From the NCBI GenBank assembly GCA_907163375.1, contig CAJQUW010014395.1, forward strand, positions 372,001 through 436,000: 64,000 nucleotides of DNA, given 5' to 3'. The notes beneath the pieces were generated by a model. That model worked only from the letters and a program-made list of their open reading frames with translations, ran no database searches and was not told where the DNA came from. The translations under genes and the position numbers were made by a program. Positions 1-57,689 of the stretch are shown here, piece by piece (position 1 is the first letter of the stretch; each line of letters opens with the position of its first letter). Source of the stretch: Prostheceraeus crozeri (lineage: Eukaryota; Platyhelminthes; Polycladida; Euryleptidae).

Positions 1-22
1 CCCGGTTTCTGTAAGAAACCGA
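1..22. repeat. Hairpin at the outermost visible arm end
   Basis: CGGTTTCT and AGAAACCG form an 8-bp perfect stem around the loop GTA. The mirror lies at 13753-13772, exactly where the detectable arm match ends. Hairpins at repeat edges are common recombination or resolution points; any role here is inference. Confidence 0.6.
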
Positions 23-720
23 CTTAGAAAATTTCATTGCTGAACTCAGCTAAGGCGTCAGACTTAGAGGTTCGCCAGGAGATGGCCTTCGTCTCCAGGC
101 CATAAAAGACTCCAAAACTTTAAAGGCTTGTAACTTTGCTTCTACAAGTCCGTTTGACTTGATTCAAAAAAGGTTCGGTTGCTATTGACCTGCTTTAAGT
201 GATAGACTACTTATAAAATGTTGTAAGTAGTGCTAAAAAGTTGAAAAATTTAAATTCACTAGTTTTGGAGGTTTTCTGGGGTTTTCGACCCTGCTGAATT
301 CAACTAAGACATTTACAAAGTTGTCAGAGGCGAGCTTCGGCTCGAGACTTGTTTCCTGATGTAAATAACTCCACCGATTTTCATGTCAAAATCGGGGCCC
401 GGATACCAACACAGTGACATGACGCACGCTCTGTCCGCTCGAGGTTGGATTTGTGGGTCGAGGTCTTGGAGTTGGGATAAGATCCCCTCTGAGAAATGCC
501 TGTGACGGATTCATCAGCTTAACTTGTCTTTCCTCTAAGCGAAGTTGTCTTTGTGATAGCACTGGGCGACTATCGATTCTGTCTTTGTATAGCATGGGCC
601 TTCACGACTGATAGCCCAGTAACTGTCGATGTGTTGTCCAAATTTGGTAAAAGCGTCGTTGTCAAGTTAAAAGCATGACTAAATTTAGAAAGACCAAGGC
701 AAGGCTTTGTGTCGGGAGGG

Positions 721-727
721 TATATAA
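721..727 (+). promoter_or_regulatory. TATA box of left-arm gene
   Basis: TATATAA lies about 50 bp before a 5' splice donor at 779. With a start about 30 bp downstream (near 750) it would make a short noncoding first exon ending at 778. It is the best core-promoter match upstream of 984. Confidence 0.65.
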
Positions 728-983
728 GTCACTGCTTCTCTCTAGGCTTCACTCCTGTTTCAAGTTGTAAGACGAACGGTGAGTGCTCTGTCGAAGTTTG
801 CTATCAAACTTTGAAATATTTAGAACTTAGGATTATTCTGTCTTAATGCAGATACAGTAATAGCTTCACATAAACGTTTTTATCAAGCTGTGACTTTAGA
901 TGAGATCCTTTAACGATCTCCTCTTATGAGCACTAAAATGTGTCTCAATTTAACACATTATTTCTTCTCTTTTCAGTTTGAAA

Positions 984-2166
984 ATGACGAAGGAATGCAA
1001 TAAAAAATTACAAATTTTTAAGTGTAGTTGCGGCATGCCCTTCCGCGGTGACCGTTTCAGGCGCCACGTCTTGGCGAGAGTGACGAAGGGTGAGATGAAG
1101 CATGATGATGTGTTGATGGTGATGTATTGTGTGTGGTGTGATGTTCGTTGTAGTGCGTATGATGTCGAGTTTGTGAAGGCTCATGCCAATTGTCCTCTGC
1201 GTGTGATTGGGAAGGAAATGATGAGTCAAGTGTTGAGTGGTGAGCGGGGGAGCGCATTTGTTCAAGGCGAACCAGTACGTTCCCCAGTCGTGAATGTGGA
1301 TTTGGATGATGATGAAGTGGCGAGTAAAGTAAAGAGGAAGTTGATTGTCGAGAGTGATGATGATGATGACGATGAGGCTATGGAGAGCGTTGTAACGAAG
1401 AAGGGGTGTGTTGAGAGGTTGAGTGATGATGTTGAGCTTGAGCGAGCTGTCGCGTCGATTGAGCCACTGGCAAAGCCACGGGCTCAATCGTCGCCGAGAG
1501 ATGAGCGTGTGATGCCTAATTGTGTTGTGAGAGTGAGTCAGTCGAGTGTGCCGAGTAAAGTGGTGTTGACGAAGAATGATGCGCTGGCGTATGGGAATGT
1601 GAGGAATGAGTGTGACAGGTTGCAGGGAAAGTTGAATGCTGCAAAGTGTACGTTGAAAGAAGTGACTGTGGAAAGGGATCGCTTGAAGAGAGAGTCGGAG
1701 GACTTTGCGAGTGTGAAGAGAGAGTTGTTTGAGGCGAGGCAGAAGTTGGTGAATGAGAGAAAGTTGAGGGAGACGCTTGAGTCGAAGTTGGAGAGTTGTG
1801 AGAAGTCGGTCTGTCGAGAGCGTGAGTTGAAGGAAGAGGCGATGGAACGAGTGAGAGTGTTGGAGCGTCAGTTGAGTATGCAGTCGGAAGTGTCGCCTGA
1901 AACGGTCACCGCCCTTCACATTCCTGTGGTGGGCTATGTCCCGGAGCGGCCATTAATTTATGGAGATGTGACTCCTGATACATCACAAGAATGTTTTAAC
2001 TGCACGGATGTCCGATGTTATCACATCAAAATACATCACAAGGAGGACATCCGTGTAGATTATAGGAAGCCGCACAAATTTCGTAAGTATTATGACTGGA
2101 ACATAACATTGTACCATCTTTCTCATTCTTACTTCTTTCATTGCAGGCCAACTGAAAAAGTCATAA
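984..2166 (+). CDS. Cys/His-rich, acidic, coiled-coil protein (spliced; left-arm copy)
   Basis: No family recognised. Predicted structure: noncoding exon to 778, intron 779-976 (GTGAGT to TTTTCAG), coding exon 984-2082, a 64-nt intron 2083-2146 (GTAAGT, pyrimidine tract, TTGCAG), and a final 20-nt coding exon with TAA at 2164-2166, giving 372 residues. I start at ATG 984; an in-frame TTG at 978 directly after the splice site is not a plausible start. Residues 5-70 hold regularly spaced Cys/His (C5, C14, C16, H28, C49, C52, C56, H67, C70), suggesting zinc binding. Residues 102-111 and 119-131 are hydrophobic patches followed by Asp/Glu runs, like SUMO-interaction motifs. About 198-303 is a charged coiled coil. 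Without the second splice the frame reads on to 2360 with less convincing sequence. A nuclear regulatory role would fit but is inference. The mirror copy is identical in translation. Confidence 0.75.
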
Positions 2167-2219
2167 GCCCACCACATCCCACGTCCCGAGAACGACCCAT
2201 GGGCTCTCTTAAGGGCCAA

Positions 2220-2335
2220 CCTTCTAATGCAGCTAAAGCGGTCCCAAGCCCGCCACATATCTACGGATATGGAATGCAGAGGGGAAGAAAAATGATGAAT
2301 GGAATGAAGGGAGGACATTCATGCGCCACACGCAA
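2220..2335 (+). repeat. 3' block shared by two genes (copy 1)
   Basis: About 115 bp downstream of the spliced stop closely matches 5769-5890, downstream of the core gene, and is mirrored at 11439-11554. It contains a perfect 6-bp stem with tetraloop, CATATC-TACG-GATATG. It may be a common 3'-UTR processing or stability element. Confidence 0.7.
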
Positions 2336-2393
2336 CACAACAGACTTCTCTCTTCGCTAGTGAACAAGCTCTTGTCAGTGTCATCAGAAACTA

Positions 2394-3195
2394 ACATGTT
2401 GTACAAAGGTTTTACTGCAGCACAGGTTGATGTATAGTTAGAAAAGTTTGATCATGATGTTTTATGAAACACACATGTCATAAAATGTAAGCGTTAGTGT
2501 AGTCAACTAGTTTTTACTACAACTCATGTTAGAGAAAGTAAAGTCTGATCATCGAAGTTGTATTCGTGAGTGTCATCAGAAAGTGTATCATGGTTTGAAA
2601 AAGCAAAGTTAGTGTAGTCAGAAACTTTATCATGTTGTATAAAGGTTTTACTGCTACACAGGTTGATGTATAGTTAGAGAGTTTGATCATTGAAGTTGTA
2701 TTCGTAAGTCTAATCAGAAAGTGTATCATGTTGTACAAAGGTTTTACTGCAGCACAGGTTGATGTATAGTTAGAAAAGTTTGATCATGATGTTTTATGAA
2801 ACACACATGTCATAAAATGTAAGCGTTAGTGTAGTCAACTAGTTTTTACTACAACTCATGTTAGAGAAAGTAAAGTCTGATCATCGAAGTTGTATTCGTG
2901 AGTGTCATCAGAAAGTGTATCATGGTTTGAAAAAGCAAAGTTAGTGTAGTCAGAAACTTTATCATGTTGTATAAAGGTTTTACTGCTACACAGGTTGATG
3001 TATAGTTAGAGAGTTTGATCATTGAAGTTGTATTCGTAAGTCTAATCAGAAAGTGTATCATGTTGTACAAAGGTTTTACTGCAACACAGGTTGATGTATA
3101 GTTCGAAAATTTGATCATGGCGTTTTATGAAACACAAGTGTTATGAAATGTAGGCGTTAGTGTAGTCAAATAATATTACCGCGACACACGTTTGT
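2394..3195. repeat. 332-bp tandem repeat, about 2.4 copies
   Basis: The word GTACAAAGGTTTTACTGC recurs at 2401, 2733 and 3065, a constant 332-bp step, with near-identical sequence between. The small frames inside merely repeat with it. Mirrored at 10579-11380. No coding signal seen. Confidence 0.9.
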
Positions 3196-3241
3196 GAAAA
3201 TAATGTTTGATCATTGACGTTGTATGACTGACCGAACTCAT

Positions 3242-3460
3242 CACAGCACTAGAAAGTTTTATCGAAAAGGTTTTACTGCACAGTGTAGATTGTCTTGTAA
3301 CTTACTTTCACAGCACTAGAAAGTTTTATCGAAAAGGTTTTACTGCACAGTGTAGATTGTCTTGTAACTTACTTTCACAGTGTTAGAAAGTTTTATCGAA
3401 AAGGTTTTACTGCACAGTGTAGATTGTCTTGTAACTTACTTTCACAGTGTTAGAAAGTTT
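3242..3460. repeat. 67-bp tandem repeat, just over three copies
   Basis: CACAG followed by a TAGAAAGTTTTAT word recurs at 3242, 3309, 3376 and 3443 with exact 67-bp spacing. The unit contains GGTTTTACTGCA, also present in the 332-bp unit, so the two arrays are related. Mirrored at 10314-10532. Confidence 0.9.
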
Positions 3461-4780
3461 TATTGGTGACAGTTGGCAAATGTTTCCCTATTAGAAAATT
3501 CAAACTCCATGACTGTTAGATTCGCTTCATCAGGTTTACTAAAAGCAGTTTTCTACTGCAATGAGAGTTTAGAATGTTATATGAAAACAGTGTTCACCAC
3601 AGCACTAGAATGTTTTTATCCTTAGTTGAGATCCGGACTGCAGTGTGTAAAATGTTTTATGTGACAGTCTTTTCACAAACGGTGAAGTGTAAATACAGAG
3701 TGAATCCATCTGTTAGGTGGTCATTAACTTTGGATGTGAAGTAAAGCGAATCTGTGTACAGAATGAATTGAATATTAGACAACGCCTGCAAGTTTTTGAC
3801 GACTTGAGTGGTTGACATCAAATCTAAGTTTAACATGTTGGATATAAAAGTGAGATGGATAGGAATAAGTGTTGAATGTTTTATAAAACCAGATGTTGTC
3901 ACACACGTTGAGTGTAATTCCATGACATTGAATCGCGTGGGTTGTAAAGTCCATCATCCAAGGCTAGGCTCCTCTACGGTTGGATTTAGGGTTTTATATT
4001 ACATGCGTTAACCGTTCGTGTAGAATATGTGAAGCACATGTTCGCATAAATGCAAATGTTGAAATAAGTTTTGTAAGAAGTCTTTGACAGGTTGTTGTGA
4101 AACTTAGCGAACGTTGAAAAAAGTTTTATGAAATGTTTCTGCAGTCACACTCGTTAGCGTACCAGCTTTACTAAATGTGTTGTTTGCCTTTATCAAATTG
4201 AATGTGTGTGTGTTTTGTAAATAAAGACAGACAGCGTGTTTGCACTCTGCATCGACAGCATACAAGTATAGACATAACAACTTGTTGTTAGTCGAATGCA
4301 TATGAGATAGGAAACATTATGTGTGAGATAAAAATCAACCTGCTAGATGAAGTGAAACACAAAAGTGTCACAACTAGTTTACGGGAAATAAAGGAGAACT
4401 GTGACAACGTTTACACTCATCATAGACAGATGAACATACAAATCTGACATTCAAATGAAAGTCGTAAACATGAACTGCGGTGTAAGAAACTTTATGTCAA
4501 CAACTTTATGTTGGTAAAACTTTCATAGATTGCAGGCGTGTTGAAAGCTGATATAAAGACCTGTAGAAACGCATAAGTCTTAGTTCAACGACTCGACCCT
4601 TGAACTCACACAATGAACACGTCTGTGTAGAAAACTCATTGGTAGGAAACAGTATTTTCTGTGCGAATGCAGACGATGTAAACATGACATTTAACATGGC
4701 TTGCAATAGTCAACATGCTGCCAATCAAAATGTTTATCATAAAACCTATCAGTGAAAAAAAAAACCCCTCCTGTGCCCAC
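3461..4780. other. Arm interior without a supported gene
   Basis: Short frames here (for example 3657-3923 minus and 4506-4706 minus) lack promoters or recognisable motifs. One changes length between the arms through a single-base homopolymer difference, which argues against selection on it. The hairpin at 3945-3996 is the notable structure. Confidence 0.6.
3945..3996. ncRNA. Candidate precursor-like RNA hairpin (arm)
   Basis: TAAAGTCC pairs with GGGTTTTA (two G-U pairs), then a 3x3 internal loop, then ATCCAA with TTGGAT, another 3x3 loop, three pairs and a 6-nt loop. The shape resembles a small pre-miRNA stem. Mirrored at 9778-9829; a related hairpin lies at 7687-7736 in the core. Strand and expression cannot be told from sequence. 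Confidence 0.4.
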
Positions 4781-4795
4781 AAAGAATCATAAGTG

Positions 4796-4960
4796 CTCTC
4801 TGACGCCTGTCTGTCGCACTAGCCCCTCAGCAGATAGAGTAGAACACAAAGATGAATGACAGCGCAGCCGGTGGGCGATCGTCTGTTGCGCTAGCCCCTC
4901 AACAGATAGAGTAGAACACAAAGATGTTTGCTCTCTCTCTGGCGCCCGTCTGTCACATGA
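4796..4960. repeat. Partial tandem duplication near the arm-core junction
   Basis: A roughly 35-bp word containing CTAGCCCCTCA(G/A)CAGATAG occurs at about 4820 and 4890, and CTCTCTG(A/G)CGCC(T/C)GTCTGTC at 4796 and 4938. Mirrored in the right arm near 8813-8977. It overlaps the 3' end of the junction reading frame. Confidence 0.7.
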
Positions 4961-5178
4961 AACAGAGAGCTATCGCATCTGTCCCAGGATGCAGGAACGT
5001 GTCGTAGCACCTGGCTGATTCCCACACAGCTCATTGCTATCGCACCGGAAGGGAGATTCACGCGATAAATGCATCTAAGTTTGTTGAGTGGTTGAGGATT
5101 GCAGTCAATGAAAATATGACTTCCCTTTTCGTCCACCAACCATAAGCTTAGAGCGATTTGATTGCGCGAACCAGACAT
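4891..5178 (-). CDS. Possible 95-aa junction protein (core-arm spanning, left)
   Basis: A 95-residue frame starts at ATG 5178-5176 in the core and ends inside the left arm. Its last 53 residues are shared with 8691-8882 at the other junction, where the N-terminal residues differ. A TATA-like TTTATATG lies about 25 bp upstream (5201-5208), overlapping the TATA of the divergent gene at 5238. I recognise no family, and much of the shared part overlaps a duplicated DNA word, so coding is uncertain. Confidence 0.35.
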   Translation of the reverse strand: MSGSRNQIALSLWLVDEKGSHIFIDCNPQPLNKLRCIYRVNLPSGAIAMSCVGISQVLRHVPASWDRCDSSLFHVTDGRQRESKHLCVLLYLLRG

Positions 5179-5200
5179 TTCAAAGGCTGTATCATTCTCA

Positions 5201-5206
5201 TATAAA
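5201..5206 (+). promoter_or_regulatory. TATA box of core acidic-protein gene
   Basis: TATAAA lies 37 bp before the ATG at 5238, implying a very short 5' leader. The reverse strand reads TTTATATG, so the site could serve a divergent minus-strand frame as well. Confidence 0.6.
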
Positions 5207-5237
5207 GCAGAGTCTCGTGCATTTTACTATCATAATC

Positions 5238-5659
5238 ATGTCCGAGAAGCCAACTGCTCAAGTTACCCCATATAGGATTACTTATATGGGTGAAACGTTT
5301 CTCTCCGATGAGAGTGAGGATATAGTATTTCATTTTATGAAATACTATTCCTTGTTCGATGAATCGAACGTCATACCTCCACCCGAATCCTCGATGATGG
5401 ATCTGCAGGAATCTCCGAGTGAGAGCGAGACGGTGGGGAGCGAGGCCGAGATGGCAACCAGCGAGAGCGAGACGGTCGAAAGTGATAACATGGAAAGAGA
5501 GGAGATGATGTGGAGTGAGGACTCGGAAAGTGATAACATAGAAAGTGAGGAAGTGGAAGCGAGTGAAGATGTCATTGTGATATCGGATGATGAAGTAAGA
5601 GTTTTACACATGCATGCGAATGGCTGTCATCTCAACTCGTTCATGTTTTCTTTCAGTGA
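5238..5659 (+). CDS. Acidic 119-aa protein ending in a SUMO-interaction-like motif (spliced)
   Basis: No family recognised. ATG at 5238 follows the TATA box; the longer frame opens with a GTG at 5217 and is not needed. Coding runs to 5594. A 62-nt intron (5595-5656, GTAAGA to TTTCAG) ends exactly before TGA (5657-5659), so splicing produces an immediate stop. The middle is very rich in Ser-Glu and Ser-Asp repeats, typical casein-kinase-2 targets. Residues 112-119, VIVISDDE, match the hydrophobic-acidic SUMO-interaction pattern and are the extreme C terminus. Unspliced reading would add 47 unrelated residues. The shared 3' block follows at 5769. Binding to SUMO-modified partners is inference from the motif. 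Confidence 0.65.
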
Positions 5660-5768
5660 TGGAGTGAGTGATGGGCGTTCTTTAGTTCATAAAATCATCA
5701 TGCGCACATACAGCACACTGTTTCACCACATTTCCTCGTGAATGCATCATGAGTTCTTATAAGAACTT

Positions 5769-5890
5769 CCTTCTAATGCAGCTAAAGCGGTCCCAAGCCC
5801 GCCACATATCTACGGATATGGAATGCAGAGGGGAAGAAAATTGATGAATGGAATGAAATGGGAGGACACTCTTGCACCACATGCAGCCAC
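5769..5890 (+). repeat. 3' block shared by two genes (copy 2)
   Basis: Close match to 2220-2335 with a few substitutions and small indels, again downstream of a short 3'-proximal intron. It keeps the CATATC-TACG-GATATG hairpin. Confidence 0.7.
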
Positions 5891-5984
5891 AAACACATTT
5901 CTATCTTCATTAAGATGACATTCAATCACTTGAATTCTAATGTGACCTAATCCTTAGATCTCAGTACAGTCAACTCTCTAACGT

Positions 5985-6480
5985 ACTTATTAAACCCATT
6001 ATCTCTAACTTTACAAACACTGAAAGGATTCTAACATGATTTCAAACTTAACAAACATCAAATTTATTTCTAACGTTACAAACAGTGAAATGCTTGTGAC
6101 ACTATTATATACTTTACCTATCTTGCAAACACTGAAATGATTCTGATATTATTCCTAACTTTACATTCATCAACTTTATTTCTAACTTTACAAACGTCAA
6201 CTTTATTTTTAACGTTGCAAACAGTGAAGTGATTATAACTTCATTTACATTTCACCTATCTTACAAACACTGAAAGGATTCTAACATGATTTCAAACTTT
6301 ACAAACATCAACTTTATTTTTAACGTTGCAAACAGTGAAGTGAATCTGACTTCATTTATATTTCACCTATCTTACAAACAGCGGCATGGTGATAACTTTA
6401 TTTCTAACTTTACAATCATCAACTTTATTTCTAACTTTACAAACAGTAAAATGGTTGTAACTTTATTTCCTTAGTCAATC
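5985..6480. repeat. AT-rich degenerate tandem array
   Basis: Variants of AACTTTACAAACATCAACTTTATTTCTAAC recur roughly ten times with irregular spacing and interspersed CACTGAAA(G/T)GATTCTAAC words. No coding signal. Confidence 0.75.
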
Positions 6481-7686
6481 CACTCTTTTGAAACGACAAG
6501 AAAACGACACAGCATGTACATGATACGTTATTGAAACCCACACAGCTTTTTTGTTACACTTACAATTCATTTCATTTCTTCTATCCTATACACTCAAAAC
6601 CTGCAACAACATTTAATCTATTACACCTGAAATCTATTGACATGTGATACATTACATTAAATCTTCGATATCAAATACTATCATGAAACAACTAGCAGTA
6701 CCTGACTCTAAACATGCACTGATTCCCACATGTATGACATTAGTAATTTTTCTATCATGTGTGACTACATGCTCATCAATATGAAAGGCTTGCAGTGACT
6801 TAACTCTTAATGTGTCCATGTCAAGCTTTTGGAAATAACTTTTCATGTACAGTTGACATACAATCAATTTCAACGGATGCTCCAGTCATAGCATGTTATT
6901 CCTGCTTTCGCACTCATGGTGTCATGCTGCATCAACAAGTTGCTTCTATCTAACTTTTACATCAATAAACCAAATGCCCTGATGCTATATGATACTGTCT
7001 GGATATGCTATTGTTGTTTCTTTTAACTATGTCACTGATTCAAACAGTTAATCACACTACCTATTCATTAAACTTTGCAATCTCAATCTTTGCTTTCATC
7101 GAATATGAACCTCTAATTTACATACAACAACTATGATATGTGTTCTATCTTATACACTCAACCAGTAGAGACATTCATTCTGTTACATCCATGAACATGA
7201 TGTGATAAAATTCACATCATCTCAAAACCCTTTAACAGCGCTTGTCTTCAAACATATGCTGAATCCCACACAGCTTGTTTGTTACACTACCAATTCATTT
7301 CAATGTGGGCTAATCTTGCATCACTCATTTCATGTAACACAACTCTTCACTTTAATTATTCCCAGAATGTTACTGCAGTGGTCTCAACACAATCCCTACC
7401 ATGTATTCTAACACTTTCCTCATCAACTCTTTACACACTTATGATTCCAATCACTAAGATACATACAACTCTTCTATTGAACATGTATCAATCACCTTTC
7501 AGCTGACCACATCAAATGTAAAGTGTATAACATAATGAGCATGCAACTATCTCTCATCAACGATATGAAATCTGTCTTTTCACCATGAGAATTAAGTCTT
7601 GCCTTCAAAGTCATTTTATAAAGCGAACATATGCATCACGTATTCTATACTAAAAGAGATCGTTCATTTGTATTATCCAAATGACT

Positions 7687-7736
7687 AAGTCCCTAAATCC
7701 AACGGTAGGTAACCCTACCCCTTAGATGATGGACTT
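7687..7736. ncRNA. Candidate hairpin RNA in core
   Basis: The outer stem AAGTCC-GGACTT and the perfect inner stem GGTAGG-CCTACC (loop TAAC) enclose imperfect pairing. The flanks CTAAATCCAAC and GATGATGGACTTTA are shared with the arm hairpin 9778-9829, so these are diverged copies of one element. A third, less structured relative is near 7826-7862. Confidence 0.4.
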
Positions 7737-8266
7737 TAGCAATTTAGCTGTGTCATTCACCAATGGATAAGTTAGTAAATGCATGTATGCACTCTACAAC
7801 AACAGTTATCATTGATGTATGTTATATAAAACGCTAAATCTCTAAGTCCAACCGTGGCTGTCATTGCCTGCATTACTATACAACATGTTGCTCTGATGAT
7901 TCTTCCACCACCCTTACTCTTTCCATTTGAGGGGTAGTGAAGAAATAAATTCATGACTTCAGGTCAAAAGCTCTCTCTACACACGTTTATATTTTACATC
8001 ATGTAAAAGATCCTTGCTACTTATCATAGGGGCCTTAAAACTTTAAACATGATGATTTCATGGCAGTTAGACCTTTGAAGATGTGTGTTGGACACCTTGT
8101 CATGAAGTTGAGTTCTCATCAGATGAATTTAATAAGAGCTTCTTCATTTTCTAAGAAAGATAGAGATCCTTAAATCCAGTGTTTGTGTGTGGCACAGTCT
8201 GTAACTTTTCTTTGTTAATAGGGTGGCCTCCAACGAATTGGTGACCGGGCCCTCGGAAGGACCGAT

Positions 8267-8294
8267 GGAATACTTCGATTACTCGAAGTATTCC
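8267..8294. terminator. Perfect 12-bp hairpin over a stop codon
   Basis: GGAATACTTCGA and TCGAAGTATTCC form a perfect 12-bp stem with loop TTAC. The loop contains the TAA stop (minus strand, 8281-8279) of the 78-aa gene. It may act in RNA 3'-end formation or stability; eukaryotic hairpin termination is not assumed. Confidence 0.5.
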
Positions 8295-8515
8295 GGACGC
8301 TGAATTCTCAGCAGCGCCAGATATTCTAGCGCCATATCCCTAAATAAAGGGTTCTCCACAAGCTCATGTGGAATAAGATGGACGGGGCAGCGAATTGCTT
8401 CGCCTTTCTCTGCCTGCAAAGCAGCCAGGAGAAAGACTTTCCCCATCTTCACCCTGCATCCACAGCGGAGCTCAAGGGTTCGACTCATGTCAAAGAAAGC
8501 GATATCGAAAGACAT
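8279..8515 (-). CDS. Small 78-aa Cys/His protein
   Basis: ATG at 8515-8513 lies about 45 bp downstream of a minus-strand TATA-like sequence (8561-8567), a plausible compact gene. The protein has C18-x-C20, then C43-P-x-H46, a half-zinc-ribbon or degenerate RING-like arrangement, followed by a leucine-rich helical tail. The spacing of Cys-x-Cys and Cys-Pro recalls the N-terminal part of the arm protein, but similarity is weak. No family recognised. The stop codon sits in the loop of a perfect hairpin. Confidence 0.55.
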   Translation of the reverse strand: MSFDIAFFDMSRTLELRCGCRVKMGKVFLLAALQAEKGEAIRCPVHLIPHELVENPLFRDMALEYLALLRIQRPEYFE

Positions 8516-8560
8516 TGCTTCAAACGACTTGTAATTGATGAATGAGTGTGAACGTCTCCC

Positions 8561-8567
8561 TTATATT
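8561..8567 (-). promoter_or_regulatory. TATA-like box of 78-aa gene
   Basis: Minus strand AATATAAGG, about 48 bp before the ATG. It is the only TATA-like word close upstream. Confidence 0.5.
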
Positions 8568-8690
8568 TCTCACACATTTTCGTAACTGGCTAGCAAGACA
8601 TTGAAGAATTAAACAAATCGGCAGTGTCCATGCTTTAACAGCAAATGGTTTCTTGCGCGCGCGCGGAGTGTACAATAACGAATTGTCAAC

Positions 8691-8882
8691 GTGAGAATCC
8701 TTTCAGCCGCCCACGATAATCTCTCCGGTGCGATAGCAATGAGCTGTGTGGGAATCAGCCAGGTGCTACGACACGTTCCTGCATCCTGGGACAGATGCGA
8801 TAGCTCTCTGTTTCATGTGACAGACGGGCGCCAGAGAGAGAGCAAACATCTTTGTGTTCTACTCTATCTGTTGAGGGGCTAG
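8691..8882 (+). CDS. Possible 63-aa junction protein (right)
   Basis: Mirror partner of 4891-5178. The last 53 residues lie in the arm and are shared, while the first residues come from the core and differ. The frame begins with GTG at 8691 rather than ATG, so a normal start is lacking. A GCGCGCGCGC run at about 8655 lies just upstream. Low confidence as a real gene. Confidence 0.2.
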   Translation: MRILSAAHDNLSGAIAMSCVGISQVLRHVPASWDRCDSSLFHVTDGRQRESKHLCVLLYLLRG

Positions 8883-9777
8883 CGCAACAGACGATCGCCC
8901 ACCGGCTGCGCTGTCATTCATCTTTGTGTTCTACTCTATCTGCTGAGGGGCTAGTGCGACAGACAGGCGTCAGAGAGCACTTATGATTCTTTGTGGGCAC
9001 AGGAGGGGTTTTTTTTTTCACTGATAGGTTTTATGATAAACATTTTGATTGGCAGCATGTTGACTATTGCAAGCCATGTTAAATGTCATGTTTACATCGT
9101 CTGCATTCGCACAGAAAATACTGTTTCCTACCAATGAGTTTTCTACACAGACGTGTTCATTGTGTGAGTTCAAGGGTCGAGTCGTTGAACTAAGACTTAT
9201 GCGTTTCTACAGGTCTTTATATCAGCTTTCAACACGCCTGCAATCTATGAAAGTTTTACCAACATAAAGTTGTTGACATAAAGTTTCTTACACCGCAGTT
9301 CATGTTTACGACTTTCATTTGAATGTCAGATTTGTATGTTCATCTGTCTATGATGAGTGTAAACGTTGTCACAGTTCTCCTTTATTTCCCGTAAACTAGT
9401 TGTGACACTTTTGTGTTTCACTTCATCTAGCAGGTTGATTTTTATCTCACACATAATGTTTCCTATCTCATATGCATTCGACTAACAACAAGTTGTTATG
9501 TCTATACTTGTATGCTGTCGATGCAGAGTGCAAACACGCTGTCTGTCTTTATTTACAAAACACACACACATTCAATTTGATAAAGGCAAACAACACATTT
9601 AGTAAAGCTGGTACGCTAACGAGTGTGACTGCAGAAACATTTCATAAAACTTTTTTTCAACGTTCGCTAAGTTTCACAACAACCTGTCAAAGACTTCTTA
9701 CAAAACTTATTTCAACATTTGCATTTATGCGAACATGTGCTTCACATATTCTACACGAACGGTTAACGCATGTAATA

Positions 9778-9829
9778 TAAAACCCTAAATCCAACCGTAG
9801 AGGAGCCTAGCCTTGGATGATGGACTTTA
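9778..9829. ncRNA. Candidate precursor-like RNA hairpin (right-arm copy)
   Basis: Exact mirror of 3945-3996. On the plus strand it reads from TAAAACCC through CCGTAGAGGAGCC to GGACTTTA. Confidence 0.4.
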
Positions 9830-10313
9830 CAACCCACGCGATTCAATGTCATGGAATTACACTCAACGTGTGTGACAACATCTGGTTTTATAAAACATTC
9901 AACACTTATTCCTATCCATCTCACTTTTATATCCAACATGTTAAACTTAGATTTGATGTCAACCACTCAAGTCGTCAAAAACTTGCAGGCGTTGTCTAAT
10001 ATTCAATTCATTCTGTACACAGATTCGCTTTACTTCACATCCAAAGTTAATGACCACCTAACAGATGGATTCACTCTGTATTTACACTTCACCGTTTGTG
10101 AAAAGACTGTCACATAAAACATTTTACACACTGCAGTCCGGATCTCAACTAAGGATAAAAACATTCTAGTGCTGTGGTGAACACTGTTTTCATATAACAT
10201 TCTAAACTCTCATTGCAGTAGAAAACTGCTTTTAGTAAACCTGATGAAGCGAATCTAACAGTCATGGAGTTTGAATTTTCTAATAGGGAAACATTTGCCA
10301 ACTGTCACCAATA

Positions 10314-10532
10314 AAACTTTCTAACACTGTGAAAGTAAGTTACAAGACAATCTACACTGTGCAGTAAAACCTTTTCGATAAAACTTTCTAACACTGTGAA
10401 AGTAAGTTACAAGACAATCTACACTGTGCAGTAAAACCTTTTCGATAAAACTTTCTAGTGCTGTGAAAGTAAGTTACAAGACAATCTACACTGTGCAGTA
10501 AAACCTTTTCGATAAAACTTTCTAGTGCTGTG
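10314..10532. repeat. 67-bp tandem repeat (right-arm mirror)
   Basis: Mirror of 3242-3460, same 67-bp period. Confidence 0.9.
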
Positions 10533-10578
10533 ATGAGTTCGGTCAGTCATACAACGTCAATGATCAAACATTATTTTC

Positions 10579-11380
10579 ACAAACGTGTGTCGCGGTAATA
10601 TTATTTGACTACACTAACGCCTACATTTCATAACACTTGTGTTTCATAAAACGCCATGATCAAATTTTCGAACTATACATCAACCTGTGTTGCAGTAAAA
10701 CCTTTGTACAACATGATACACTTTCTGATTAGACTTACGAATACAACTTCAATGATCAAACTCTCTAACTATACATCAACCTGTGTAGCAGTAAAACCTT
10801 TATACAACATGATAAAGTTTCTGACTACACTAACTTTGCTTTTTCAAACCATGATACACTTTCTGATGACACTCACGAATACAACTTCGATGATCAGACT
10901 TTACTTTCTCTAACATGAGTTGTAGTAAAAACTAGTTGACTACACTAACGCTTACATTTTATGACATGTGTGTTTCATAAAACATCATGATCAAACTTTT
11001 CTAACTATACATCAACCTGTGCTGCAGTAAAACCTTTGTACAACATGATACACTTTCTGATTAGACTTACGAATACAACTTCAATGATCAAACTCTCTAA
11101 CTATACATCAACCTGTGTAGCAGTAAAACCTTTATACAACATGATAAAGTTTCTGACTACACTAACTTTGCTTTTTCAAACCATGATACACTTTCTGATG
11201 ACACTCACGAATACAACTTCGATGATCAGACTTTACTTTCTCTAACATGAGTTGTAGTAAAAACTAGTTGACTACACTAACGCTTACATTTTATGACATG
11301 TGTGTTTCATAAAACATCATGATCAAACTTTTCTAACTATACATCAACCTGTGCTGCAGTAAAACCTTTGTACAACATGT
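10579..11380. repeat. 332-bp tandem repeat (right-arm mirror)
   Basis: Mirror of 2394-3195, same 332-bp period. Confidence 0.9.
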
Positions 11381-11607
11381 TAGTTTCTGATGACACTGAC
11401 AAGAGCTTGTTCACTAGCGAAGAGAGAAGTCTGTTGTGTTGCGTGTGGCGCATGAATGTCCTCCCTTCATTCCATTCATCATTTTTCTTCCCCTCTGCAT
11501 TCCATATCCGTAGATATGTGGCGGGCTTGGGACCGCTTTAGCTGCATTAGAAGGTTGGCCCTTAAGAGAGCCCATGGGTCGTTCTCGGGACGTGGGATGT
11601 GGTGGGC

Positions 11608-12790
11608 TTATGACTTTTTCAGTTGGCCTGCAATGAAAGAAGTAAGAATGAGAAAGATGGTACAATGTTATGTTCCAGTCATAATACTTACGAAATTTGT
11701 GCGGCTTCCTATAATCTACACGGATGTCCTCCTTGTGATGTATTTTGATGTGATAACATCGGACATCCGTGCAGTTAAAACATTCTTGTGATGTATCAGG
11801 AGTCACATCTCCATAAATTAATGGCCGCTCCGGGACATAGCCCACCACAGGAATGTGAAGGGCGGTGACCGTTTCAGGCGACACTTCCGACTGCATACTC
11901 AACTGACGCTCCAACACTCTCACTCGTTCCATCGCCTCTTCCTTCAACTCACGCTCTCGACAGACCGACTTCTCACAACTCTCCAACTTCGACTCAAGCG
12001 TCTCCCTCAACTTTCTCTCATTCACCAACTTCTGCCTCGCCTCAAACAACTCTCTCTTCACACTCGCAAAGTCCTCCGACTCTCTCTTCAAGCGATCCCT
12101 TTCCACAGTCACTTCTTTCAACGTACACTTTGCAGCATTCAACTTTCCCTGCAACCTGTCACACTCATTCCTCACATTCCCATACGCCAGCGCATCATTC
12201 TTCGTCAACACCACTTTACTCGGCACACTCGACTGACTCACTCTCACAACACAATTAGGCATCACACGCTCATCTCTCGGCGACGATTGAGCCCGTGGCT
12301 TTGCCAGTGGCTCAATCGACGCGACAGCTCGCTCAAGCTCAACATCATCACTCAACCTCTCAACACACCCCTTCTTCGTTACAACGCTCTCCATAGCCTC
12401 ATCGTCATCATCATCATCACTCTCGACAATCAACTTCCTCTTTACTTTACTCGCCACTTCATCATCATCCAAATCCACATTCACGACTGGGGAACGTACT
12501 GGTTCGCCTTGAACAAATGCGCTCCCCCGCTCACCACTCAACACTTGACTCATCATTTCCTTCCCAATCACACGCAGAGGACAATTGGCATGAGCCTTCA
12601 CAAACTCGACATCATACGCACTACAACGAACATCACACCACACACAATACATCACCATCAACACATCATCATGCTTCATCTCACCCTTCGTCACTCTCGC
12701 CAAGACGTGGCGCCTGAAACGGTCACCGCGGAAGGGCATGCCGCAACTACACTTAAAAATTTGTAATTTTTTATTGCATTCCTTCGTCAT
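11608..12790 (-). CDS. Cys/His-rich, acidic, coiled-coil protein (spliced; right-arm copy)
   Basis: Exact mirror of 984-2166: coding exon 12790-11692, 64-nt intron 11691-11628, final exon 11627-11608 with the stop. The noncoding 5' intron is 12995-12798 and the TATA box 13053-13047. The translation is identical to the left copy, so the gene exists twice per element in opposite orientations, as genes do in the terminal or internal repeats of some large DNA viruses. Domains are as described for the left copy. Confidence 0.75.
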
Positions 12791-13046
12791 TTTCAAACTG
12801 AAAAGAGAAGAAATAATGTGTTAAATTGAGACACATTTTAGTGCTCATAAGAGGAGATCGTTAAAGGATCTCATCTAAAGTCACAGCTTGATAAAAACGT
12901 TTATGTGAAGCTATTACTGTATCTGCATTAAGACAGAATAATCCTAAGTTCTAAATATTTCAAAGTTTGATAGCAAACTTCGACAGAGCACTCACCGTTC
13001 GTCTTACAACTTGAAACAGGAGTGAAGCCTAGAGAGAAGCAGTGAC

Positions 13047-13053
13047 TTATATA
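13047..13053 (-). promoter_or_regulatory. TATA box of right-arm gene
   Basis: Mirror of 721-727. Confidence 0.65.
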
Positions 13054-13773
13054 CCCTCCCGACACAAAGCCTTGCCTTGGTCTTTCTAAATTTAGTCATG
13101 CTTTTAACTTGACAACGACGCTTTTACCAAATTTGGACAACACATCGACAGTTACTGGGCTATCAGTCGTGAAGGCCCATGCTATACAAAGACAGAATCG
13201 ATAGTCGCCCAGTGCTATCACAAAGACAACTTCGCTTAGAGGAAAGACAAGTTAAGCTGATGAATCCGTCACAGGCATTTCTCAGAGGGGATCTTATCCC
13301 AACTCCAAGACCTCGACCCACAAATCTAACCTCGAGCGGACAGAGCGTGCGTCATGTCACTGTGTTGGTATCCGGGCCCCGATTTTGACATGAAAATCGG
13401 TGGAGTTATTTACATCAGGAAACAAGTCTCGAGCCGAAGCTCGCCTCTGACAACTTTGTAAATGTCTTAGTTGAATTCAGCAGGGTCGAAAACCCCAGAA
13501 AACCTCCAAAACTAGTGAATTTAAATTTTTCAACTTTTTAGCACTACTTACAACATTTTATAAGTAGTCTATCACTTAAAGCAGGTCAATAGCAACCGAA
13601 CCTTTTTTGAATCAAGTCAAACGGACTTGTAGAAGCAAAGTTACAAGCCTTTAAAGTTTTGGAGTCTTTTATGGCCTGGAGACGAAGGCCATCTCCTGGC
13701 GAACCTCTAAGTCTGACGCCTTAGCTGAGTTCAGCAATGAAATTTTCTAAGTCGGTTTCTTACAGAAACCGGG

Positions 13774-14286
13774 GATTTGGAATGTCCGAAGCTATCATCG
13801 GAGCTCAGAGAGACGACCTACCTCTGACAATCGCTCTCGTCTTAATGACAAGTCTCTGTCGGTTCCCAGCTTATATAGTGTGTGGCGATCAGCTGATGAC
13901 GTAACACCCATCATCCAAAAACTTTAAACCCGTCTATCTCCGGTTCTAGTGCTCCGATTGACTCCAAATTTTGAGTGTCACGTTTTCTCGCTCTCCCCTT
14001 TCATTTAAGACATCCCTCGACCCTCTACGATGACCAGAAGCCGAGATGAAAAAACTCTGTCGTTTTTTCAAAAAGTTCCAAAATCTTGGAAAATGCACAA
14101 AAACTCGATTTTTAACAGGCTCTCATTTGGAAACGGAGCCTGTCACGCATCTGAAAAGAGGAGATCCTAGAGAACAAAGTGCGGTCTTGCCGCTAAAAGA
14201 AACCCGAGCTCTTCATTCACTTCCAATCCTCCACAATTCATCGTCCAAGTTGGCAAAAAAAAAGCGACATTTCACATTTGGACTTG
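13774..14286. other. Spacer between inverted repeat and tandem array
   Basis: About 510 bp with no partner in the window. It includes a TATATAG at about 13874 and a 106-aa frame (14046-14366) that runs into the repeat array, so it is not credible as a gene. GC content resembles the arms, so it may belong to the same element. Confidence 0.5.
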
Positions 14287-16606
14287 AAAAAATCCTAAGT
14301 GTCGAGACCACCGTAGTGAAAATTTTCGAAAAAATTTTTTGGACGAATTTCAACCTGAAACCTTGATAGAAGTTTGTTTCACATGATTCTGAACAACTTT
14401 GGTCTTTTCGACCAATTTGGTCAGTTGAGTCGTTGGGGGGGGGGGGGGCGGTTTTTTCACCGAAACTTCACCGACCCAACTTTTGACGACAAACACGATG
14501 GGATGGGTCTCGGAGCTCAATTCCAACATTTTGAAAAAAAATTTTTTTTTTTTTTTCATGAAAAAATCCTAAGTGTCGAGACCACCGTAGTGAAAATTTT
14601 CGAAAAAATTTTTTGGACGAATTTCAACCTGAAACCTTGATAGAAGTTTGTTTCACATGATTCTGAACAACTTTGGTCTTTTCGACCAATTTGGTCAGTT
14701 GAGTCGTTGGGGGGGGGGGGCGGTTTTTTCACCGAAACTTCACCGACCCAACTTTTGACGACAAACACGATGGGATGGGTCTCGGAGCTCAATTCCAACA
14801 TTTTGAAAAAAAAATTTTTTTTTTTTCATGAAAAAATCCTAAGTGTCGAGACCACCGTAGTGAAAATTTTCGAAAAAATTTTTTGGACGAATTTCAACCT
14901 GAAACCTTGATAGAAGTTTGTTTCACATGATTCTGAACAACTTTGGTCTTTTCGACCAATTTGGTCAGTTGAGTCGTTGGGGGGGGGGGGGGGGCGGTTT
15001 TTTCACCGAAACTTCACCGACCCAACTTTTGACGACAAACACGATGGGATGGGTCTCGGAGCTCAATTCCAACATTTTGAAAAAAATTTTTTTTTTTTTC
15101 ATGAAAAAATCCTAAGTGTCGAGACCACCGTAGTGAAAATTTTCGAAAAAATTTTTTGGACGAATTTCAACCTGAAACCTTGATAGAAGTTTGTTTCACA
15201 TGATTCTGAACAACTTTGGTCTTTTCGACCAATTTGGTCAGTTGAGTCGTTGGGGGGGGGGGGGGCGGTTTTTTCACCGAAACTTCACCGACCCAACTTT
15301 TGACGACAAACACGATGGGATGGGTCTCGGAGCTCAATTCCAACATTTTGAAAATTTTTTTTTTTTTCATGAAAAAATCCTAAGTGTCGAGACCACCGTA
15401 GTGAAAATTTTCGAAAAAATTTTTTGGACGAATTTCAACCTGAAACCTTGATAGAAGTTTGTTTCACATGATTCTGAACAACTTTGGTCTTTTCGACCAA
15501 TTTGGTCAGTTGAGTCGTTGGGGGGGGGGGGCGGTTTTTTCACCGAAACTTCACCGACCCAACTTTTGACGACAAACACGATGGGATGGGTCTCGGAGCT
15601 CAATTCCAACATTTTGAAAAAAAATTTTTTTTTTTTCATGAAAAAATCCTAAGTGTCGAGACCACCGTAGTGAAAATTTTCGAAAAAATTTTTTGGACGA
15701 ATTTCAACCTGAAACCTTGATAGAAGTTTGTTTCACATGATTCTGAACAACTTTGGTCTTTTCGACCAATTTGGTCAGTTGAGTCGTTGGGGGGGGGGCG
15801 GTTTTTTCACCGAAACTTCACCGACCCAACTTTTGACGACAAACACGATGGGATGGGTCTCGGAGCTCAATTCCAACATTTAGAAAAAAAAATTTTTTTT
15901 TCATGAAAAAATCCTAAGTGTCGAGACCACCGTAGTGAAAATTTTCGAAAAAATTTTTTGGACGAATTTCAACCTGAAACCTTGATAGAAGTTTGTTTCA
16001 CATGATTCTGAACAACTTTGGTCTTTTCGACCAATTTGGTCAGTTGAGTCGTTGGGGGGGGGGGGCGGTTTTTTCACCGAAACTTCACCGACCCAACTTT
16101 TGACGACAAACACGATGGGATGGGTCTCGGAGCTCAATTCCAACATTTAGAAAAAAAAATTTTTTTTTTCATGAAAAAATCCTAAGTGTCGAGACCACCG
16201 TAGTGAAAATTTTCGAAAAAATTTTTTGGACGAATTTCAACCTGAAACCTTGATAGAAGTTTGTTTCACATGATTCTGAACAACTTTGGTCTTTTCGACC
16301 AATTTGGTCAGTTGAGTCGTTGGGGGGGGGGGGCGGTTTTTTCACCGAAACTTCACCGACCCAACTTTTGACGACAAACACGATGGGATGGGTCTCGGAG
16401 CTCAATTCCAACATTTTGAAAATTTTTTTTTTTTCATGAAAAAATCCTAAGTGTCGAGACCACCGTAGTGAAAATTTTCGAAAAAATTTTTTGGACGAAT
16501 TTCAACCTGAAACCTTGATAGAAGTTTGTTTCACATGATTCTGAACAACTTTGGTCTTTTCGACCAATTTAGTCAGTTGAGTCGTTGGGGGGGGGGGGGG
16601 GCGGTT
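14287..16606. repeat. About 270-bp tandem array, nine units, with long G runs
   Basis: GTCGAGACCACCGTAG recurs at 14301, 14575, 14845, 15118, 15386, 15655, 15920, 16188 and 16453 (steps 265-274). Units are nearly identical; length differences come from a G run (roughly 9-18) after GAGTCGTT and from A and T runs before TCATGAAAAAATCC. The ninth unit is cut after its G run. The many 60-90 aa frames here are repeat artefacts. Confidence 0.95.
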
Positions 16607-16659
16607 TTCTCCTCACGGACCCATTCCTCCCAACACATCCTTGGCCATGTCCCTCACAC

Positions 16660-16800
16660 TGCATTTCACATTTTGCACTTGCAGCCGCCTGATGACTCCG
16701 CCTTTCACCATTTGCACTTGCGTTCAGCCTGATGACTCAGCCTTTCACATTTTGCACTTGCGGCCGCCTGATGACTCAGCATTTCACAATTTGCACTTGA
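16660..16800. repeat. About 40-bp minisatellite
   Basis: Four copies of a unit containing TTTCAC(A/C)ATTTGCACTTG and CCTGATGACTC directly follow the truncated ninth unit of the 270-bp array. Confidence 0.8.
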
Positions 16801-16943
16801 ATTTGCAATGTGCTTACTACTTGTGATTTAGTGTTTACTTCTTTGTAGAACTTTAGAACTATGATACCCAAATGGGTTCTATCTTTTTTAAATGGCCAGC
16901 ATAAAAAATACAGCTTTATGGGCACTGCATGATTTGCATTTAT

Positions 16944-19900
16944 TCACAGGCCTATCGCAGGACTACAAGTTTTTTTGATGAAAAATAAAGCAGCGATCCT
17001 GTATTCACTCGCGAATATCAATGTCAGTGCCACTTTTATCCCTCTTCTATCAATAGTTGGATCATCTAACTTTCTCACAATTTCCCAGGGAGATATCACG
17101 GAACAATCAGTTACAAGAGAATCGACGAATTCATTAAATCGTCCTCTAAACGTGTATTGCTTCAAAAAACGAACACGAAAATCCCCATTCTCAAATCTGC
17201 TGGTAATCTGAGCTACGAAATGTTTTTTCCTGTTGTCACCCGTTTCGAGACCAACAAGTATCCAATCATCGGATTTGAGTGGGACTGCAACCACAGGAGA
17301 TGAGCTTGTGGACAATTCAGGACACGTTGTGAGATCACTTTCATTTGTTTTGTCAAACGTGTCAAGTCCACCACTGCTGCAATTATTTGCGTAATTAAAT
17401 GTCCTTGGATTGAAGCAACCACAAGAGGATTTGCAGTGGCAAGCCAAGTCTCTAATAAGATATCCATTTTGAGCCGACCATTTTAGGTAATGACATTTCG
17501 AAATACCTGAAATTTTGAATTTCATGCTTATGACATCGAAAAGCGTTTTTGAAAGCATGAAAATATAGGCAGGCCTAAAGAAGCAATTTCTAGCGTGACA
17601 CACGGGGAAAATAAAAATGACGTGTATAGGCCTATAACCTATCTCGTGATGCATTCATGATGTCAAAATAATGAATAAAAATTCTAGGCCCTAGATCAAA
17701 TGTGATTTTATGCATAAAATCTACCAAGCTCTCAATTTTTCTTCTTTATATCAAGTTCAAGCAATTATCATTATGAGACCTCTACAGCAGAATGATTTTT
17801 TCAATAGGCCTGGTCAATGTTTGCAGTCAGAAGCTATAGGAAGAGGCTTGATAATGTAGCTTTATACCTACTGAATGAGCAAGACTAGAAGGCAACAACA
17901 GTTCATTTCTATTCATGTCGCTCTTCGTAGATAGGTTACATGTAGGCCACGGTCGGTAAAAATGCAGCAAGTCCTGCAGTTGAATTTTGATCGTCAATCA
18001 TCAGAGTAAGCATTCATATCTACACAAAAACTGACATGATAAAATATAAAATAACTCACCCTTCATGTCAGGCAAGTTTGACTTCCAATATATCTTTCTG
18101 TCGATTTCCTCTTTGGACACAGTGGTTATCAAAATATCCACATTTTTTGTCAAATCGCATAAATCTCCCAGGTTATCAATAAACTCTCCACTCGAAACAT
18201 GCGAATCCCATGTTCGTTTCAAAACAGCGCCGACGCCATCCGCTGCGCTTTTACCGTGCCCACTCTCACTGAAATACCATTCTAGAGAATCGATATGCAA
18301 AAAATCGCAAAGTCGAGCAAGAAGCTGAACAGTAAAACGGTTACGGTACTGTAAACTAGGGCTATCAGAGAAGATGATCAATTTCTTTACATATGTCCTG
18401 TCAATCAAATCGAGAGCTTTGTGAATATGTGTCACCACTGTTTCGGCTGTTTTCCGCCTGTCCGTACTTAATGTCGCAAAACATTTCGGTTCCTCATTTT
18501 GTGCATATGCTACTCCTTGGTGAATAGTAATGTGCTCATTGTAGCCGAAGTGTGCCGATTGGACTTCATTCCCAAATTTCATTGTGTAATTTTCACTGAA
18601 ATCCACCAGCAAACAGATTTCATCTGTTGACATCATTTGCTTCGCTAGCCTCATTTCATGATATTGGTTAGTGAATGAGAATTGGTGATATGCATTTCCA
18701 TCGCAGTTTCACATTTCAGAGCTAGCTTCTGGACTGAATCAGTGAGTTGAACACGCTTGGTGACTGCTACCGAGACTTCTCTGTCTTTGATTCGCTGCCA
18801 TTGGACATAAGGAATTGTTGACAACGATGACAAAAATGACCCATCTTCCTCCCTTGGACACACACTCCTTGATTGACATTCTGGACACAGGCGCGAACAG
18901 CACAACTCTGAATAAGGCGAACATACAATTTGTCGAAGATTTTCAGACATACTTGATGACTTTAGAACTTTGATATTTCGTAATGCCTGGAGGAGCAATC
19001 GAGGATTTTCACATTTTATGCACATGCATAACTGTCTGTCAGAAAGCTTGGGCTTCACAACTTGTTTTGGCTTCAATGAAAAGAACAAGGACCGAGAAAT
19101 CTTTTCTATTGAATTTTCGGACATATATTTCATGTGCACGTCACTGATAGAAAACAGCGGATACCTCTTCTGAAAAGACTGTCGACGAATCCTAATAAAC
19201 TCTTTCTTCCCTGATGCAAGTCTGGAATTATCATCACGACAATAGAAGGAAATGACTGAGTGACGAATTGGATTTGACCGAGCAATGTTGATGGTAGCAT
19301 TATTTATGGTCCTGCAATCTGTCTGTAGCAACTCTCTCAGATGACTCTTGGCACCAAGAAACTTTCTACTGACGTCTTTTAGCGTGCTGGCTAATTTTCT
19401 GCGTATTTGGTACTTTCTCTTTATTGACTTTATCAGGGCCAGGTGAACATTTATCATCAACTTTACTTTTTTTTGAAGATTTCATGGCAATTTCTGATGA
19501 GGCATTTGGACCATCGTGATACAAAGGTAGGCCCACACTTCCACCTTGGGCTTTCAATCTCTCAATTCTCTTTTGAAATTTGCGCACTTGCTTTTGCAGT
19601 GCAATGTTTCTGTAATTTAGGAGTTTGACCTTTTCCCTCCTCTTTTTTATTTCTCGTTTTCTTACTGCACGCCTCTTTGAATCACTGGCAGATCTGGCAG
19701 AAGACAAACATGGAGATGATACTCTTGAATTTGTTGCGCTCACAGATTCTGGTTCATTTGGTTCATTTTGTAGAGATTGGTTTTTAGTTGCTCTGTACTC
19801 TCTCATGTACATGTATAGTTTTCTTTTTCTTGCAAGAAGACGTTTCTGCTTAGGATCACCGTTTTCCTTGCATTTGTGATAAGATCTTAGTGCTTGCTCC

Positions 19901-19992
19901 CTCACCTTCATCAAACGTTCTCCGCCATTTTTCTTTAACTTTTCTCGGTATCTCCTCTTTCTTTCAAGCATCTTTTGTCTATCAGGGGCCAT
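16944..19992 (-). pseudogene. Frameshifted transposase-like gene of an unnamed invertebrate family
   Basis: Reading from ATG at 19992: a basic Lys/Arg-rich N terminus and coiled coil to about 19400; a second frame (19460-18651) with FYCRDDNSR, a KRYPLFSI region and Cys pairs; a third frame (18654-18060) with DFSENY, FSDSPS and SHGKSAADGVG, which look like acidic catalytic positions of an RNase-H-fold nuclease; and an intron (18059-17507, GTGAGT to TTTCAG). The last exon, 17506-16944, has a CHCKSSCGC cluster and a small C-terminal domain. The order matches a multi-copy family I know from cnidarians and other invertebrates but cannot name. Frames change near 19400 and near 18690, so this copy is probably broken unless those are unseen introns or errors. 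Confidence 0.6.
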
Positions 19993-20508
19993 TTTGCAGA
20001 ATACAGCCGCTGTCGTTGTCGACATAGCATGAACTGATGATTTCGTGAAGCAGCAAAAATCTCTTTGTCTGAGAGCCATCCAATCACAGCTATTGCTTGT
20101 ACGACGACTCGATGACGTACACACGTCGATATCTTTTTACTTCGGAGTTCTATGTGATGCGCAGGATGTGTTTATTGTAGTCGAAGAATTTGTTTGAAAA
20201 GTGGTGACATCTTCGAAACGGAAAAATTTCTAAAAGGACCTTATCAGTGGTGACATATTTTAGCAAACCCTGATCATTCACAAAAGGAGGACTTCGTTCG
20301 TGTGGCGAAAGGTCTCTCAAACTAGCAAAAATTCAAGATAAATTTAGAGAATTATGTCTCAATGTTCGATAGCTCCCATCACTCTACAAAGTCAATTGTG
20401 AGCGCAAAATGTGCAGAATTCAGCTCACAATGCCCAAAAACTCACGAGACTAATAAAAAACACAATATATGGCTGATTTTGCTGAGGTGCTAACATAGAT
20501 AGAAATGC
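19993..20508. other. Upstream flank of the transposase-like gene
   Basis: The reading frame stays open upstream of the chosen ATG to 20124, but the sequence there is not basic like the family N terminus. No other gene seen. Confidence 0.4.
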
Positions 20509-57619: not shown

Positions 57620-57689
57620 GCACAGCAGCCAATGTTGCAGTCACAAATGCTACAGACGCGCGCCGTACGATTTCTCAGGTTTCTCTCGG

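Follow-up and report, generated by a model that had tools for sequence, protein, structure and literature searches.

A dispersed giant palindrome in the flatworm Prostheceraeus crozeri has Maverick/Polinton-type ends and carries two orphan genes

The window analysed here is a stretch of 64,000 nucleotides from the polyclad flatworm Prostheceraeus crozeri (assembly GCA_907163375.1, contig CAJQUW010014395.1, in our numbering C11949, positions 372,001 to 436,000 of the forward strand). Its left part is occupied by a palindromic element with one gene in each of two inverted arms (the arm gene) and another in the core between them (the core gene). A preliminary description of positions 1 to 13,773 had proposed near-identical arms of about 5 kb, differing by one substitution and one homopolymer length, a core of about 3.7 kb with promoters and genes of its own, and an arm gene. 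Self-alignment bore this out. Positions 1-5049 and 8724-13773 are inverted copies with 99.96% identity across 5,050 aligned columns, exactly two differences separate them (G vs A at 447 and six vs seven A's in the homopolymer at 4116), and candidate TATA boxes and open reading frames (ORFs) can be read in both parts. The palindromic inverted repeat is real and larger than first noted. The left arm is cut by the window edge, 372 kb more of the contig lying to the left, and both arms run past 1-13773 into a satellite array and 39-bp terminal repeats, followed by a sharp end. The whole element covers C11949:369572-388821 (window -2428 to 16821), which is 19,250 bp, and its arms measure 7,478 bp on the left and 8,098 bp on the right, far longer than the usual terminal inverted repeats (TIRs) of transposons, as had been stated. 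Its features in window coordinates are as follows.

1..5049, plus strand: left arm, inner part, by self-alignment; the arm continues to C11949:369572
721..976, plus strand: putative promoter of the arm gene, with TATATAAG at 721, and candidate intron of the 5' untranslated region (780-976)
984..2082, plus strand: main coding exon of the arm gene, 366 amino acids, with splice sites read from the sequence
2220..2355, plus strand: motif A downstream of the arm gene, 90.7% over 140 columns to core 5769-5908
2372..3463, plus strand: arm-internal tandem repeats with 332-, 96- and 67-bp units, mirrored at 10311-11379
3945..3991, plus strand: motif B in the arm, 83% to core 7691-7738, inverted
5050..8723, plus strand: unique core, 3,674 bp, by self-alignment and genome copies
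5238..5741, plus strand: core gene, 167 amino acids, acidic, an ORF with putative TATA box (TATAAAG) at 5201 and ATG at 5238
5769..5908, plus strand: motif A downstream of the core gene, by self-alignment
7691..7738, minus strand: core match of motif B, opposite in orientation to motif A, by self-alignment
8724..16821, minus strand: right arm up to the right terminus, by self-alignment and copy comparison
11692..12790, minus strand: right-arm copy of the arm gene (C11949:383693-384790, minus)
14285..16598, plus strand: 268-bp satellite array of the outer arm, 8.6 units by Tandem Repeats Finder (TRF)
16664..16799, plus strand: 39-bp subterminal tandem repeats, by tandem repeat search and copy comparison
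16807..16821, minus strand: right terminus AATGTGCTTACTACT (inward reading 5'-AGTAGTAAGCACATT-3'), by copy comparison and genome pattern search
16822..16827, plus strand: target site duplication TGTGAT, its partner at C11949:369566-369571 being outside the window on the left

The host genome (2.05 Gb) was searched for other copies. With at most two mismatches allowed, the terminus pattern was found at 857 places (424 forward and 433 reverse), while the reversed pattern as a control gave 5 (2 + 3). The first 100 terminus places listed were on 77 contigs and formed 21 plus/minus pairs, 20 of them spanning 14.9-30.1 kb and one 2.0 kb. A terminus-bearing element of 30 kb lies at C1306:21735-51786. 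Among the best 40 of 3,671 first-look candidates the whole core was covered at 92-100% identity in 29 places, the window included. For the arm gene, the best 112 of 10,061 first-look places were on 79 contigs with 32 convergent pairs, starts being 6.8-12.4 kb apart; one additional close pair, on C8606, belongs to two adjacent elements. Seven copies were read on seven contigs, and both arms were present in each. Mean substitutions between the seven were 1.8, 3.4 and 0.4 in arm segments of 960, 1,411 and 1,201 bp, and eight copies compared over 3.6 kb of core varied at 9 sites, all of these copies being top-ranked ones; other members are only 92% identical. The family holds both young and older members. 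Recurrence at so many places excludes chance or an artefact of a single read; the element is a dispersed, high-copy mobile element. At C7363:258928-260893 two termini are only 2.0 kb apart, probably in a deletion derivative, which is a lead to the minimal sequence for movement.

The ends of the element read 5'-AGTAGT...ACTACT-3' and the consensus of the terminus is 5'-AGTAGTAAGC(A/C)CATT...AATG(T/G)GCTTACTACT-3'. Ten ends finish ACTACT in outward reading exactly where the flanks of the copies diverge; three further ends (window left, C5756 right and C8606 right) were located by pattern. The left end of C8606 was outside the fetched stretches, thus target duplications were scored in six copies. 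Perfect 6-bp duplications were present in five of these six: TGTGAT in the window, TGCGTC in C13477, CGAAGC in C1258, TAGAGT in C5742 and GAAGCC in C5756. For the window copy the length was tested exactly; 6 bp matched, while 4, 5, 7 and 8 bp did not.

The arm gene has its candidate 5' intron between a donor at 780 and an acceptor just before 977, and the ORF begins with the ATG at 984. The frame is open to 2357 when a second candidate intron (2083-2146) is retained. The arm protein has a Cys/His-rich N-terminus and an acidic stretch, and residues 197-300 are predicted to form a coiled coil. Its structure model, computed without an alignment, was mostly of low confidence apart from the coiled coil (mean pLDDT 49.9) and too weak for a fold search. 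In the core protein the stretch DVIVISDDE resembles a SUMO-interaction motif. Neither gene had a Pfam match above the cut-off and the arm gene had none in the PDB. Eight more ORFs of the element of at least 85 amino acids likewise gave no Pfam match above the cut-off, and no PolB, integrase, ATPase, protease or capsid domain was seen. A set of 5.8 billion proteins contained a single protein identical to that of the arm gene, from a contig of 3,546 bp, and a single 98%-identical core protein, on an 844-bp contig of the European Nucleotide Archive (ENA). The earlier statement that the genes match no known family thus held in these searches. No viral contig matched the arm or core genes or a 24-base piece, and a scan of prokaryote genomes gave no match. 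A herpesvirus-like inverted-repeat segment, considered because of the layout, was rejected on the lack of a viral contig match and of any domain found.

The arm-gene frame was open in 105 of the 112 best-scored places and had one stop in the other 7, a count that is biased upward because the scored places are the best matches and young copies. Of the 14 arm genes present in the seven copies that were read, 13 had an open frame. The core gene was identical in all ten copies compared. Four of eight arm-gene variants change an amino acid (0.76 expected, p = 0.10), and none of the 9 core variants is within the 501-bp core gene, which is uninformative on selection; selection on either gene is not demonstrable from these 8 and 9 variants. 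A 26-bp inverted repeat (92%) at 1045-1070 and 1887-1912 brackets most of the coding exon of the arm gene. Small hairpins are dense at 1-977 (6 vs 0.9 expected), and a strong hairpin run is found at 5201-5400, at the start of the coding sequence of the core gene (z about -5.9 vs 25 shuffles).

The similarity of the arms was analysed at positions where the copies differ. Left and right arm of the same copy agreed in 50 of 56 informative cells. Shuffling the right arms among copies gave a mean of 31.8 agreeing cells, and 4 of 2,000 shuffles reached 50. Mean substitutions within vs between copies were 0.86 vs 3.36 in segment 960-2370, 1.29 vs 1.81 in 1-960 and 0.14 vs 0.43 in 3500-4700; the contrast was strong only in 960-2370. 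Because the arms agree within a copy we concluded that they are renewed together. As a rule, the left and right arms of a copy thus go back to a single arm that was duplicated not long before insertion; C13896, C8606, C13477 and C5756 show exceptions. The likely route of renewal is template switching during strand displacement. The core on C11920 gives a hint of fold-back replication. By its coordinates, from which alone this case is known, it reads 5101-8054 and then turns back at 8004, exactly on an 8-bp inverted microhomology ACATGATG. When the core was scanned, just two inverted matches of 8 bases had loops in the range of about 20-70 bases.

The outer arms differ in their satellite. An exact 25-base word of the 268-bp unit has 6 occurrences in the left outer arm and 9 in the right one, and the number of units varies between arms and between copies. 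An older palindrome nested within the core, suggested by motif A in forward and motif B in inverted orientation, is only partly supported; wider alignments were unclear, with best z values of 4.4 and 3.2 among 40 comparisons. The core halves had no homology past the arms at the inner junction (best score 27 vs a shuffled mean of 25 and maximum of 33).

The same genome harbours Polintons. Scoring of the best 88 of 18,708 first-look PolB candidates placed 63 of the 88 in frames of at least 1,100 amino acids. Two Polinton copies of one family begin with AGTAGTTTATAG at the point where their flanks part; the starting letters of the copies on C1856 and C7442 are AGTAGTTTATAGTG. The C1856 Polinton encodes PolB, a double-jelly-roll capsid protein, an A32-type ATPase and an rve integrase, which is fused to a phospholipase-like domain. 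A neighbouring, inverted Polinton of a second family appears to begin with AGTAGTACTAGG (one copy, its end located by position). The members of the two families face each other almost head to head at C1856:26000-35999, with some 1.3 kb between them; AGTAGT is the start of one and apparently that of the other as well. At C6304:63161-68806 two PolB matches of opposite orientation are about 2.6 kb apart, possibly in a palindromic Polinton. On C10859 a PolB match and an arm-gene match are some 22 kb apart, which suggests neighbours and not a single element.

Among the end motifs of vertebrate Mavericks, (AGT)2//(ACT)2 is the most frequent; their target duplications are 6 bp, intact elements have 12.7-24.6 kb and their terminal repeats 46-1,447 bp (PMC8097293). 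The (AGT)2//(ACT)2 ends and the 6-bp duplication tie the palindrome to the Mavericks/Polintons. Maverick-like working, judged from the ends, is well supported. Because no recognisable Polinton genes but only two orphan genes are present, the element is read as a non-autonomous one that relies on Polinton enzymes for its movement and copying. We thus favor the view that the entire palindrome is the moving unit of a non-autonomous element of Maverick/Polinton type, which we consider probable, and on which Polinton enzymes would act in trans. The preliminary description had presented the locus as the strongest candidate for an undescribed element. The long arms and the unknown genes stood, and the end of the arm, other copies and target duplications, which it had proposed to look for, were all found; the element is less isolated than supposed, as it has the Maverick/Polinton end signature. 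In the full text of 5.39 million open papers the expression non-autonomous Polinton or Maverick did not occur, and Polinton-derived stood once in each of three; among the titles and abstract openings listed, none described an element of this type, subscription papers and repeat databases being outside this scope.

A mechanism can be proposed on these grounds. Polinton integrase supplied in trans would insert the element with cuts six bases apart, and the protein-primed B-family polymerase of Polintons would copy its linear DNA. For Mavericks, the doubled end motif is expected to be used for jumping-back when replication is protein-primed (PMC8097293), and the doubled AGT end of the palindrome would be used in this way. 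Fold-back template switching in strand-displacement synthesis may have built the giant arms and may keep renewing one from the other. The two orphan genes would be passengers that were kept in the compared copies; they may help the element to compete with its helper, to regulate it or to be packaged by it. A bolder version, possible but in our opinion doubtful, makes the palindrome a satellite of Polintons comparable to a virophage or satellite virus, with Polinton ends, two genes of its own that act on the helper and perhaps packaging in Polinton capsids, rendered self-complementary by a helper polymerase that mirrors one half.

Several observations weigh against a Polinton-dependent palindrome or parts of its proposed history. 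BLAST of the palindrome against the C1856 stretches gave no match of at least 60 bases, only AGTAGT being common to both, and the fetched Polintons gave no protein match to it. The terminus and Polinton genes were never found together; the 77 contigs of the first 100 termini and 86 PolB contigs share none, both lists being partial. AGTAGT is known from the left ends of Polintons, their right ends and duplications not having been seen. Genes of intact Mavericks are reported to be intronless (PMC8097293), while the arm gene has candidate introns. Among the copies, C13896 has no matching duplication (ACTGTC vs GACATG), its contig stopping 12 bases past the end, and the right end of C5756 is rearranged, the rearranged stretch preceding that end. 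In the right arm of C5756 the arm gene is shortened by 29 bp and no longer in frame (1 of 14). Arms of the same copy disagree at 6 of 56 cells, and the C11920 fold-back is a single case that could be an assembly fault.

Some of these points would suit other explanations. The partial lists contain no autonomous partner that bears the full terminus, and palindrome and Polintons have just six bases in common. Both points would agree with a non-autonomous element of another DDE superfamily that has acquired 6-bp duplications and an AGTAGT start by chance; Galileo also has long arms with tandem repeats (PMC4168063). We regard this as unlikely, because end motif and duplication both fit the published Maverick signature (PMC8097293) and Polintons with the same six terminal bases exist in the same genome. 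Moreover, the duplications of Galileo are 7-8 bp (PMC4168063) and Ginger has 4-5-bp duplications and TGTNR ends. The lack of a recognisable helper with the full terminus could also mean that the element is autonomous and of a new kind, the arm protein, the core protein or both being an unrecognised integrase or replication factor. The presence of both genes in the compared copies, with the arm frame mostly open in the best-scored places and the core gene unchanged, speaks for this. On the other hand, the Pfam and PDB searches described above were negative, the model of the arm protein is a low-confidence one with a coiled coil, the core protein is short and acidic, and the open frames are biased by best-match scoring and youth. 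An autonomous new kind is therefore even less probable than another DDE superfamily.

Near-identical arms that agree within a copy are also what a chromosomal palindrome kept alike by gene conversion would show, as in inverted gene pairs of C. elegans or the palindromes of sex chromosomes, and worms have convergent gene pairs with near-identical arms (PMC1803023). Yet the same palindrome recurs, bounded by exact ends and target duplications, at numerous unrelated loci, which makes this explanation very improbable; gene conversion may contribute after insertion. A fold-back artefact of sequencing or assembly hardly deserves credence. Amplified long-read libraries often contain inverted chimeras (PMC6218980), but the window start is not a contig end, both arms are present in the seven copies on their seven contigs, the flanks differ in the six copies with both ends read, and the 6-bp duplication links the flanks in five. 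The more special case of an assembly fold-back at a contig end was rejected, as the window is interior to a 517-kb contig.

The sequence to the right of the element contains further coding regions. Starting about 120 bp outside of it, four consecutive ORFs of 217-269 amino acids at 16944-20124 (minus strand) had no Pfam family above the cut-off; we take them to resemble a large transposase of marine invertebrates. This region had no match of at least 250 bp in the fetched flanks of six other copies. At 32335-34779 (plus strand) there is an 814-amino-acid ORF of a long interspersed nuclear element (LINE) with endonuclease-like and reverse transcriptase domains and without stops. Tc1/mariner-like transposase ORFs are located at 36759-37802 and 57083-58147, the first with 347 amino acids. 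A CUB-domain ORF was seen in element flanks, and a perfect 30-bp palindrome is present in the flank at 20508-20537. The LINE, Tc1/mariner-like and CUB-domain ORFs, together with the genome size, by themselves indicate a eukaryotic host, most likely an animal.

Mavericks encode capsid-related proteins, and their particles have not been observed (PMC8097293); Polintons may still replicate and package DNA. A high-copy family with near-identical copies, of which only the ends are those of Polintons and the genes are its own, suggests that in the germ line of an animal a Polinton machinery for replication and integration is at work or was so until recently. The family is a marked substrate for testing Polinton replication and integration. 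In its giant arms, which change in concert, nature may have recorded how a protein-primed polymerase replicates by fold-back.

Finally, we compared the element with known systems. Dada transposons have 6-7-bp duplications, a Dada transposase and RNA genes as targets. Ginger has TGTNR ends and 4-5-bp duplications in contrast to the AGTAGT ends and 6 bp of the element. Teratorn (PMC6431247) differs by its size of 41-182 kb, its herpesvirus genes, its piggyBac-like transposase and terminal repeats of 18 bp; none of these was seen here, the ORFs of the element giving no Pfam match above the cut-off. Galileo, of the P superfamily, and foldback elements share very long inverted repeats with tandem repeats (up to 4.7 kb in Galileo), the recruitment of internal sequence into the arms and mostly non-autonomous copies; Galileo differs by 7-8-bp duplications and a P-type transposase from our element with 6 bp and Maverick ends (PMC4168063). 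Another difference from Galileo and foldback elements is the gene within each arm, present in all seven copies read with one of 14 out of frame. The long inverted repeats of Caenorhabditis have near-identical arms and convergent gene copies around a spacer as well, but are single chromosomal loci and not dispersed units with target duplications (PMC1803023). As to the Mavericks/Polintons, membership as an autonomous Maverick fails as judged from the gene content, the element having no recognisable PolB, integrase, ATPase, protease or capsid protein. Its TIRs of 7,478 and 8,098 bp exceed the 46-1,447 bp of vertebrates (PMC8097293), and it has a gene with candidate introns inside each arm and satellite arrays in the arms. 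In common with the Mavericks/Polintons are the (AGT)2//(ACT)2 ends, the 6-bp duplication, the length range and the linear organisation with terminal inverted repeats (PMC8097293).

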